This document shows, one piece after another, positions 3,194-9,918 of a DNA stretch of 22,837 bases; positions within the stretch are counted from its first letter, which is position 1; the number at the start of each line of letters is the position of its first letter. This DNA comes from a virus. The DNA lies in IMG/VR virus record IMGVR_UViG_3300035162_000755, positions 1 to 22,837 of that record; one strand, written 5' to 3'. Made by a program: the position numbers and the translations under genes. The notes below the pieces were generated by a model, which saw nothing but the letters and a program-made list of their open reading frames with translations, had not been told where the DNA came from and did no database searches.

Positions 3194-3442
3194 TTATTTC
3201 TCTCTTTTTTTCCAGTGACTAGGATTATTTTCGCCTATCTGAAAGTATTTAGCTAGAAATGATACGTCAGAGAGTATGTCGCCATGAAATCCATGCTCAC
3301 CCATTGCAAAATCTAATGAGTTCTCGTCAGTTCTGTTGTTGTCAGATTGTCTTACTAGTATTGTAATTAGATTTCTTAGCTGTTCTTCTTGTTTGTTGCT
3401 AATTACTAATTCAGTTTGATGCTTTGGTGTTGGATGACTCAT
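3194..3442 (-). CDS. Hypothetical protein (82 aa), first leftward gene
   Basis: An 82-residue protein beginning MSHPTPKHQ. It has a helical middle (EEQLRNLITILVRQ) and a C-terminal half with several aromatic residues and His (GEHGFHGD, AKYF, HWKKREK). No family is recognised. The ribosome site AAAGGAGA precedes the ATG by about seven bases. It is the promoter-proximal gene of the leftward cluster. A possible rightward promoter (3339-3367) lies inside it, so it may be opposed by antisense transcription. Confidence 0.65.
   Translation of the reverse strand: MSHPTPKHQTELVISNKQEEQLRNLITILVRQSDNNRTDENSLDFAMGEHGFHGDILSDVSFLAKYFQIGENNPSHWKKREK
3339..3367 (+). promoter_or_regulatory. Candidate rightward sigma70 promoter for the structured RNA
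   Basis: TTGTCA (3339-3344), a 17-base spacer and TGTAAT (3362-3367) match the -35 and -10 consensus at five of six bases each. A start near 3374 would put transcription about 100 bases upstream of the first long-range stem of the structured region. It lies inside the leftward 82-aa gene. In DNA this AT-rich such a match can occur by chance, so this is only a candidate. Confidence 0.3.
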
Positions 3443-3472
3443 TGTAGTTCTCCTTTAGTTATTAAGAATATT

Positions 3473-4249
3473 TATATATATAATACCTTGCTGTTGGCAT
3501 ACCCACTGCAAGGATATTAATTGTTGTCAAGTAATTCATTATTAGAAAGACACGTGCAATCTCAGGGTATCTGGTTTTACCCTGAGTTGTGCTGTGTTTT
3601 CTTATGATAAGCTACTTTATTACTATTAATATCCATGCTTAAGAAAGGCTTCGAGCTTGCTCGATTATAAAGCCTTTCTAATTGTGCCTACCGCTAGGTA
3701 TTATATATATATACACCGTGGTCTCGACTTAAAAAGGTAGATGCTCTAAGCCTTCCGTGGTCGGAAGGTGTTCACGTTAAGAATCCGTGCTCTTTGGTTC
3801 TTATAGGATTCTCTTGCGTGATAGAGTATCCTTCGACACATGCGTCTGCCCTAGCAGACCATGGCACTTGTACTTGTCGAATCTTTTTAACGATAGACTC
3901 GAGACCTGATGCCTAGATTATGTTCCGTCTAGGCTACCGTCCACGTTTGGGTTATCTTACGTGGATGCCGAAGACAATATAACTACATGTTCTGGGTTAT
4001 CAACACTATTGTATTTGATTTTGGGTGTAATTAACATATACATTAGAATATTAATAACTATATCTTATAGGAAGAGTATATTAATATAACATATGGTTAT
4101 ATAACAATAACTTAACAGTGGCATTGATAGATATATTATAATGTAACTTAACAATCACTATTGGCTAGCAATTATTCCCCAAGGAATAATTAATCATGTA
4201 TAATTCCCCAGAATTATATGTGATTGCCCCCGCCAGGGGGCTAGCTAGC
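3473..4249 (+). ncRNA. Large, highly structured noncoding RNA (family not identified)
   Basis: No gene is visible in this roughly 780-base stretch, but complementary segments tile it densely. Domain A is closed by a 16-bp stem, 3473-3488 with 3696-3711. Inside it are a small hairpin (3489-3510), a 10-bp stem 3512-3521 with 3625-3634 enclosing a long hairpin (3550-3597), and a hairpin 3642-3679. Domain B is 3720-3727 with 3899-3906, then 3729-3736 with 3883-3890, then 3740-3748 with 3822-3830 holding hairpins 3751-3768 and 3772-3821, plus hairpin 3832-3881. Domain C has hairpins 3911-3934 and 3938-3967. An AT-rich part (3974-4163) is less certain. The last domain (4164-4249) is a four-way junction. 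Seven G-U pairs (3555/3591, 3556/3590, 3743/3827, 3777/3816, 3939/3966, 4197/4220, 4198/4219) fit a plus-strand RNA; the minus strand would have C-A mismatches there. The ends are estimates. Size and phage context recall GOLLD and ROOL RNAs. Confidence 0.7.
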
Positions 4250-4372
4250 AGTATATATATATGAATTGCAACTTAAAAATATCTAACAGAAATTATTGGG
4301 TTAGAAAGCAGTCGCTCTTGCTCCTTTATCTATAGGGGAGTGTAATTATTTCAATATATCTTTAATTATCTA
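4250..4372. other. Gene-free spacer between structured RNA and promoter
   Basis: No gene is seen. It starts with a TATA run, then a 6-bp hairpin (4282-4287 with 4300-4305) and a weak CTCC/GGAG hairpin (4321-4324 with 4337-4340) followed by AT-rich sequence. These could be a 3' extension of the structured RNA or its transcription end, but there is no clear T-tract, so no terminator is called. Confidence 0.35.
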
Positions 4373-4401
4373 TTGACTTTCAATTAAAAGTATGATATAA
4401 T
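4373..4401 (+). promoter_or_regulatory. Strong sigma70-type promoter, rightward
   Basis: TTGACT (4373-4378), 17-base spacer, perfect TATAAT (4396-4401). It is the first of three near-identical promoters in the window, all continuing after the -10 box as ATTAGTAT. Here that extension runs into ATAATAAG rather than an ATG, leaving a leader of about 100 bases before the first gene at 4510. The leader has short direct repeats of AGTTATAG around 4428-4452. Confidence 0.85.
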
Positions 4402-4509
4402 ATTAGTATAATAAGTAATTAGATAGTTAGTTATAGTTTTATAGTTATAGTCTTACAGTTATGTAATTATTAATTATGTAAATCATAGTATGATAGAGAG
4501 GAGACAAGT

Positions 4510-4641
4510 ATGGCAGTAGTAAAGTTTAAACCACACATGATGTATTCCAAAGCTGGTAAAGGTCAAATGGCGTTCACTAAAAAGAAACACTTAGCTCTCA
4601 AAGCTAAAGGATTTACTCACACTAAGCCTAAGAAAAAATAA
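4510..4641 (+). CDS. Small basic phage protein (43 aa)
   Basis: Starts MAVVKFKPHMMYSKAGKG and ends TKPKKK; about one residue in three is Lys or His. A GAGAGGAG ribosome site precedes the ATG. Short proteins with a similar HMMYSKxGKG motif are, from memory, recurrent in marine phages, but no function is known to me. It is the first gene after the strong promoter, and its TAA overlaps the next ATG (TAATG). A nucleic-acid-binding role would fit the charge but is not shown. Confidence 0.7.
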   Translation: MAVVKFKPHMMYSKAGKGQMAFTKKKHLALKAKGFTHTKPKKK

Positions 4642-4967: not shown

Positions 4968-4996
4968 TTGACTTTCTTTAAGTCTTGTGTTATAAT
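4968..4996 (+). promoter_or_regulatory. Sigma70-type promoter directly on the start of the small terminase gene
   Basis: TTGACT (4968-4973), 17-base spacer, TATAAT (4991-4996), then ATTAGT and the ATG at 5003. Transcription would start at or next to the A of the ATG, so the message is predicted to be leaderless. The element begins four bases after the previous stop codon. Confidence 0.85.
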
Positions 4997-5002
4997 ATTA
5001 GT

Positions 5003-5533
5003 ATGAGTAAAAAATCGTTTAAGGACAAGATGGGTAGATATCGTACTCAATCTCTTTTTTGGGAGATGAGAGATGAATCTATGGTACCAGTTTGGTGCAT
5101 GAAGGACTATGACCTTGTTAAAGGTAATAAGACCTATCCGTCTCTAAAGAATATATATATGTCTTATGAGCACGTTCCGGGATACGAGTATGACTTTGCT
5201 TTAGATAACCTAGGGTCTTGGGACCACTGGTTAAAGCTATGTAACGACACAACACCACAAATCAAAGATATGATAAAGGGCTGGAGAGATGAGTTAGATA
5301 TTCGTCTAAAAGCTACAGGTATTAAAACAATTATGAAGCACAGTCTGGATGATGACCCAAAGGGTCTACAGGCAGCTAAGTACCTTGTAGACAAGGGCTA
5401 TGCTGTCAAAAAGGCTGGGCGCCCTTCCAGGGAAGATGTAGAAAGAGAACTTAAAACAGATGCTAGGGCTGTTAGAGAACAGCAAGCTGACATGGACCGT
5501 ATTGGTCTTAAACTCGTAAACGGAGAAAAGTAA
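5003..5533 (+). CDS. Putative terminase small subunit
   Basis: 176 residues from the ATG at 5003. An upstream in-frame TTG (4985) lies in the promoter and is not credible. The protein has an aromatic N-terminal part (GRYRTQSLFWEM, residues 11-22), a middle with LGSWDHWLKLC (70-80), an amphipathic region (IKGWRDELDIRLKATGIKTI, 91-110), then LQAAKYLVDKGY and AGRPSREDVEREL (139-150). This layout, with a basic GRPS-(K/R)-E motif before a charged tail, is what I remember from small terminase-type proteins of marine podoviruses. That subunit recognises phage DNA and regulates the large terminase. No Shine-Dalgarno precedes the start; the promoter suggests a leaderless message. An ATG at codon 10 with AAGGA before it is an alternative start. 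The large terminase lies about 4.8 kb downstream. Confidence 0.55.
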   Translation: MSKKSFKDKMGRYRTQSLFWEMRDESMVPVWCMKDYDLVKGNKTYPSLKNIYMSYEHVPGYEYDFALDNLGSWDHWLKLCNDTTPQIKDMIKGWRDELDIRLKATGIKTIMKHSLDDDPKGLQAAKYLVDKGYAVKKAGRPSREDVERELKTDARAVREQQADMDRIGLKLVNGEK

Positions 5534-9263: not shown

Positions 9264-9497
9264 ATGGCAAAAACCAAAAAAACACCATTTGATTTGTACG
9301 AAAAAGAATACTTTGTAGAAGATTTAAACGAAACACAAACAATTTTATTTCAACACATAGGCGATTTAGAAAGAAAGACTAAACAGTTATTATTTAATTT
9401 AGACCAACTTAATGTAGGTAAGCAAGCTTTTATTGATAAGTTACATTTAAGTTTAATAGAAAAGAATTTAGTAACACCTAAAGAAGAGGAAAAATAA
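9264..9497 (+). CDS. Small helical protein of unknown function (77 aa)
   Basis: 77 residues, predicted to be two helices: a short strand-like start (FDLYEKEYFVEDL), then a long amphipathic region (QTILFQHIGDLERKTKQLLF and on) with hydrophobic heptads, and a charged tail. The layout resembles small coiled-coil phage proteins that begin with a 'KEY-V-DL' segment, whose role is unknown. AAAGGAGA gives a strong ribosome site. Its stop overlaps the next gene as TAATG. Confidence 0.65.
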   Translation: MAKTKKTPFDLYEKEYFVEDLNETQTILFQHIGDLERKTKQLLFNLDQLNVGKQAFIDKLHLSLIEKNLVTPKEEEK

Positions 9498-9634
9498 TGG
9501 AGTATCTATTATATATTATTATAGGATTATATGTTTGGGAAGTATATCTAGAAACCCATTGGTATAAACTTAAAGAGACTGTAACTACTAAGGCTCTATG
9601 GCTTAGAGATGTAGTCTTGGATAAATTTAAATAA
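9497..9634 (+). CDS. Small single-pass membrane protein (45 aa)
   Basis: A 45-residue frame linked at both ends by TAATG overlaps. Residues 3-18 (YLLYIIIGLYVWEVYL) form one membrane span at the N-terminus, followed by a charged amphipathic tail with two Trp. The exact stop-start overlaps on both sides support a real gene. One span and a basic tail would be compatible with a lysis accessory or an inner-membrane protein. No lysis gene is otherwise seen in the window, so this is only a suggestion. Confidence 0.55.
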   Translation: MEYLLYIIIGLYVWEVYLETHWYKLKETVTTKALWLRDVVLDKFK

Positions 9635-9918
9635 TGGCATCACCAGCATGGACTCGTAAAGAAGGTAAGAATCCTAAAGGTGGATTAAATGCTAAAGGTA
9701 GAGCCAGTGCAAAAGCAGGTGGCTCTAATCTTAAAGCTCCAGTTAAGTCTGGTAAAAACCCAAGGAGAGTATCTTTTGCTTGTAGATTTGCAGGCATGAA
9801 AGGTCCAATGAAAGATAGTAAAGGCAGACCAACTAGAAAAGCTCTAGCTTTAAAAGTATGGGGATTTGGTTCTGTAGAAGCTGCAAGAAGTTTTTGTCAA
9901 AATAATAAGAAGTCATAA
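9634..9918 (+). CDS. Basic phage protein of unknown function (94 aa)
   Basis: 94 residues, beginning MASPAWTRKEGKNPKGGLN, with NAKGRASAKAGGSNLKAP, a SFACRFAGMKGPMKDSKGRP block (positions about 48-67) and RKALALKVWGFGS. I recognise this as a widespread phage family of unknown function, usually near terminase or structural genes. Very basic, with two Cys. It is the first of three consecutive Lys-rich proteins before the large terminase. The start overlaps the preceding stop (TAATG). Confidence 0.7.
   Translation: MASPAWTRKEGKNPKGGLNAKGRASAKAGGSNLKAPVKSGKNPRRVSFACRFAGMKGPMKDSKGRPTRKALALKVWGFGSVEAARSFCQNNKKS

Follow-up and report, generated by a model that had tools for sequence, protein, structure and literature searches.

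Sequence comparison supports the presence, in the gene-free gap of a marine phage genome fragment, of a large structured element that is conserved and shows covariation of its base pairs. We propose, with a probability of roughly 0.4, that this gap encodes a rapidly evolving plus-strand structured noncoding RNA that acts in trans as a double-stranded-RNA-like effector. A function of the element at the RNA level, whatever its kind, is probable. The element lies in a fragmentary IMG/VR virus record of 22.8 kb (here called the window, meaning the whole stretch of 22,837 nt that was analysed), and the corresponding gap in related phages is a positional hot spot for unrelated, highly structured elements. 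We regard the window element as a candidate for a new structured phage RNA and the locus in its relatives as possibly a new phenomenon; taken together, a conserved covarying RNA and a locus that swaps one elaborate hairpin for the next suggest that phages have a class of RNA function that has gone unrecognised.

At the terminase large subunit, the window shares 87% identity with the Methylophilales phages MEP401 and MEP402, which places the window phage among the MEP401-type OM43 phages. MEP401 and MEP402 infect OM43 and have been classed in the Zobellviridae, and phages of the MEP401 type are reported to be ubiquitous in oceans worldwide (PMC10580990). The window shares with both a divergent gene layout, in which leftward early genes lie on one side of the gap (3443-4510) and rightward genes on the other, the latter running to the tail, terminase, portal and capsid genes. 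The first-pass annotation had described the gap as gene-free and flanked by divergent clusters, and this agrees with the absence of any ORF of at least 50 aa overlapping 3443-4640, by which a protein-coding gene in the window gap is ruled out; an 85-aa ORF found in the homologous contig L102 has no counterpart of at least 50 aa in the window. The early-module gene nearest the gap on its left side (3194-3442, minus strand, 82 aa) has no family match, and its ribosome-binding site lies immediately left of the RNA element. To the right, a phrog_8035 protein (4985-5533, plus strand) is probably the terminase small subunit, judging from its position and size. The rightward late genes are served by a sigma-70-type promoter at 4373-4401 on the plus strand (TTGACT-17-TATAAT, 11/12), so a structured RNA is not required as their leader; with this strong promoter downstream of the element, a leader role is unlikely to be its only one.

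The gap folds far more stably than expected. On the plus strand, positions 3460-4260 reach -282 kcal/mol against -187 +/- 7 kcal/mol for shuffled sequences (z = -13.7), the core at 3490-4010 reaches z = -9.0, and no 160-nt segment in all 22.8 kb is more extreme than 3521-3680 (z = -9.5), those beyond the gap averaging z = -0.5 (sd 1.2). The minus strand of the gap folds equally well (z = -13.9), and the strand cannot be chosen from folding energy alone. All five long-range stems named in the first-pass annotation form completely: 3473-3488/3696-3711 (16 of 16 pairs), 3512-3521/3625-3634 (10 of 10), 3720-3727/3899-3906 (8 of 8), 3729-3736/3883-3890 (8 of 8) and 3740-3748/3822-3830 (9 of 9), with a single G-U pair, in the last of them. 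The strong fold proposed for an ornate RNA of about 780 nt at 3473-4249 was thus recovered, but not as one uniform molecule, since the interval comprises two domains (3473-3906), a stem reaching 3996, a weak linker and a separate junction.

Domain 1 (3473-3711, plus strand) consists of an AT-rich closing stem (3473-3488/3696-3711), a long, interrupted hairpin at 3508-3638 and a further hairpin at about 3640-3680, and is followed by the multibranched core of domain 2 (3712-3906, plus strand). Folding then predicts a plus-strand stem between CCTAGATTATGT (3912-3923) and ACATGTTCTGGG (3985-3996), which is identical across the compared homologues and hence not open to a covariation test; in the window its loop holds about 50 extra nucleotides, including a hairpin. 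A weakly structured AT-rich linker (about 4010-4158) leads to a plus-strand four-way junction at 4159-4251, made of a closing stem and hairpins at 4170-4191, 4192-4225 and 4226-4241, and 3' of the junction stands a conserved motif (TGAAYTRCAAC...ATATCT...AGAAAT, 4260-4300, plus strand). The 5' arm of the domain 1 closing stem contains TATAAT (3479-3484, plus strand), a candidate -10 element of a rightward promoter that would start transcription near 3490. Since L095, L102 and the window share this arm unchanged, although the 3' strand that pairs with it drifts, the TATAAT may double as a -10 element. In L095 a TTGAAA lies 17 nt upstream of it; the -35 of the window is poor.

Homologues of the core were found in three IMG/VR contigs, L095, L102 and L109, the last of them partial. 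L095 was reached through a nearby 98-aa early protein and the other two through two exact patterns, while the 82-aa early protein used as a query gave no matches. L095 and L102 can be aligned along the entire core. In domain 2 (59 pairs, four sequences), 99.6% of pair cells are paired against 96.8% in shuffles, five pairs changed on both sides (8 cells, against 3.5 in shuffles and at most 3 in slid structures), and the one-sided changes that keep a pair all lead to or from G-U on the plus strand. Domain 1 (92 predicted pairs, three sequences) has 11 pairs with two-sided compensatory change, and in its inner part the window differs from the other homologues. The covariation check put forward in the first-pass annotation thus found compensatory changes in both domains.

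This family is narrow. Among 84 loci, a covariance model of domain 2 (R1) found the window, L095, L102 and L109 only, and the remaining contigs hit by exact patterns (L100, L101, L103-L108, L110 and L120) fell outside it. A search of bacterial genomes, one per species, with a 21-base pattern returned no homologue, and a nucleotide search of GenBank phages matched only the conserved downstream part, in MEP401. L095 and L102 carry a terminase unlike that of the window, and L102 an unlike portal as well; with at least two homologues beside an unrelated terminase, the element appears to travel with the early/replication module. This fits the recombination between groups I and II in the published scheme, in whose group II a replication module of the MEP401 type is joined to a different packaging module (PMC10580990).

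The corresponding gap in relatives was surveyed in about 80 further contigs, with the terminase small subunit-like gene as the anchor. BLASTN comparisons among them showed that the 3' half of the gap is conserved and the ornate half is not; many relatives have very strong folds there (z -7 to -13) in sequences unrelated to one another, whereas others, such as L062, L072 and L075, have a gap without one. A palindrome scan of 743 kb placed nearly all long palindromes that are not AT-rich at or near this gap. Joining the two ends of the MEP401 record (OP830906) reveals an imperfect palindrome of 769 bp that extends over gp01 and part of the gap; gp01 occupies record positions 1-300 plus the adjoining record end, and the record start splits the palindrome. 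Comparable imperfect palindromes of 774-883 nt occur in L017/L018 (L017, 4004-4777), L044 (4597-5479), L053 (723-1600), L114 (2855-3724) and L022 (1446-2326). Each of these gene-length palindromes combines a whole early gene (about 95-99 codons) with its diverged inverted copy, and the proteins encoded by the early ORFs inside them belong to a single family, marked by a conserved STSAD motif at the C-terminus. MEP402 has a short hairpin only, without a long palindrome. A four-way junction topology recurs with different sequences in MEP401, MEP402, L004/L005, L016, L017 and L019; the last junction hairpin, in the window too, always consists of a C-run, a short loop and a G-run, after which the TGAAYTRCAAC motif follows. 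The junction possibly lies close to a genome end.

Mismatches between palindrome arms bear on the strand that is used. Counted on the plus strand, G-U exceeds A-C in MEP401 (30:4), L017 (32:3), L044 (39:5), L053 (39:6) and L020 (10:0), whereas L114 (11:10), L022 (8:7), L005, L016 and L060 show no such excess. Taking lineages as independent, with the close pairs L053 and L022 left out, the ratio is 125:39 against 98 G-U expected from composition (z = 4.3), and changes between the close pair L044 and L053 also favour G-U (10:3 and 10:1). A plus-strand RNA had been argued in the first-pass annotation from G-U pairs, which holds for some relatives and for domain 2, but a strand-symmetric count of the window family is about even (3:4 and 4:3), as it is for L114/L022, and the five long stems hold just the one G-U pair. 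The window family and L114/L022 also have more two-sided changes than one-sided transitions, an excess for which DNA template switching between palindrome arms could be the source. For the window itself, the plus strand is favoured but not proven.

Based on these observations, the RNA would be transcribed rightward from near 3490, would include both domains and would run to about 4005 or perhaps on to the junction at 4251. It would be stable, largely double-stranded and active in trans, engaging an RNA-binding factor of host or phage; it might, for instance, act as a decoy that occupies a defence sensor or a nuclease specific for double-stranded RNA, with its overall fold counting for more than its sequence. 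Because the fold is kept across relatives while the sequence is replaced, a target that recognises the fold, such as a double-stranded-RNA enzyme or a host sensor, is the simplest inference; the trans or decoy role directed at an RNA-binding factor is nevertheless tentative. In favour of an RNA we counted the compensatory changes, the linkage to the early module, the refolding in relatives, the G-U bias and the invariant TATAAT arm; against it we counted the even G-U numbers of the window family, the two-sided excess, a family of four members and the weak -35 of the window. A broader and more speculative version, which we hold to be unlikely as a whole, places a hypervariable RNA locus at the early/late junction of MEP401-type phages. 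Its products would be very long double-stranded RNA hairpins, interrupted and changing in sequence, some built from an entire neighbouring gene in inverted copy and coevolving with tolerance of G-U, and would serve as effectors defined by fold only in an arms race with the host.

The two-sided excess and the equal folding of both strands are also what a DNA-level element might show, that is, a region of genome ends or replication start in which template switching creates and homogenises the palindromes, or in which they act as DNA hairpins when the genome is replicated or packaged, with RNA function unneeded. Cultured cobaviruses have direct terminal repeats of 159-173 bp, that of ICBM2 lying in the corresponding gap, which is a substantive point in favour of this reading; the two ends of the 42,780-bp contig G001 both lie in the gap and are near-identical over about 91 nt, and many other contigs terminate there. 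However, a cruciform has no strand preference, whereas MEP401, L044, L053 and L020 prefer G-U on one strand, and domain 2 is multibranched rather than a simple palindrome, and we consider this explanation rather unlikely. Less likely still is antisense control, in which the plus-strand RNA would contain the complement of a gp01-type gene, which the diverged inverted copy would keep in a long hairpin, and would turn the early gene off. The palindromes of MEP401, L017, L044, L053, L114 and L022 do cover a whole early ORF (about 95-99 aa), but the element lies outside coding sequence in the window, L095 and L102, and MEP402, which grows on the same host, has no long palindrome; since the window element does not overlap the early gene, antisense action alone cannot account for the element in general.

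A further reading, which follows the first suggestion of membership of, or kinship with, the GOLLD and ROOL RNAs, is that the element forms a cage made of RNA only. The window element resembles these RNAs in being large, ornate, noncoding and phage-encoded (PMC12286853), and the suggested kinship derives from this size and ornateness. GOLLD and ROOL are often found near tRNA islands (PMC12286853), whereas ARAGORN detected no tRNA genes in the 22.8 kb. No Rfam model, including GOLLD, ROOL and the other large-RNA models, reached its gathering score in the window, and GOLLD and ROOL were absent even from permissive searches of the gap and of the homologues L095 and L102. Such searches gave sub-threshold matches only, among them a Chlorobi-RRM RNA (RF01697) at 3748-3822 that scored 25.2 bits against a threshold of 45, was missing in the homologues and was discarded. 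The window element differs further in its position at the junction of divergent modules, with unrelated folds filling the gap of relatives and rod-like hairpins replacing it in some, so that a cage is very improbable.

Hepatitis delta RNA and Obelisks are rod-like RNAs, and the gene-length palindromes of the relatives would likewise take a rod shape, one arm of which contains an ORF; unlike them, the palindromes are encoded by DNA phages and have the ORF on the opposite strand, the comparison being one of predicted shape. The text of the MEP401/MEP402 paper (PMC10580990) contains none of the terms noncoding, non-coding, palindrom- or promoter, and a literature search on palindromes and hairpin RNAs in phages returned nothing relevant. 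Direct terminal repeats are described for the cobaviruses ICBM1-3, that of ICBM2 in the corresponding gene-free gap, and long inverted repeats were once reported at the ends of the related phage SIO1, whose ends the authors judged misplaced; unlike for the window element, RNA structure was not considered for these repeats (PMC6775973). MEP401, with its 769-bp palindrome over gp01, and MEP402, without one, are both cultured on the same host strain and offer a testable system.

Several further features of the gaps were observed. Of the contigs surveyed, a large proportion stop in the 800 nt or so that precede the terminase small subunit-like gene; such ends in the gap, those of G001 included, reflect either places where hairpins interrupted the assembly or the physical ends of genomes. 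The right palindrome arms of L114 (3356-3460) and L022 (1948-2050) have insertions of 6-8 nt relative to the gene arm (such as GTGATT, ACGGGTTA and GTGGGTT), spaced roughly 25 bp apart. GGGTTA-like bulges are also found in other gaps, in the window near 3945-3953 and 3994-4000. In L019, positions 5030-5330 are gene-free, GC-rich and heavily structured, with no evident likeness to other gaps, and the related phage MW202697 (L119) has a palindromic, extremely AT-rich stretch (about 2% GC) on the reverse strand at about 9430-9670.
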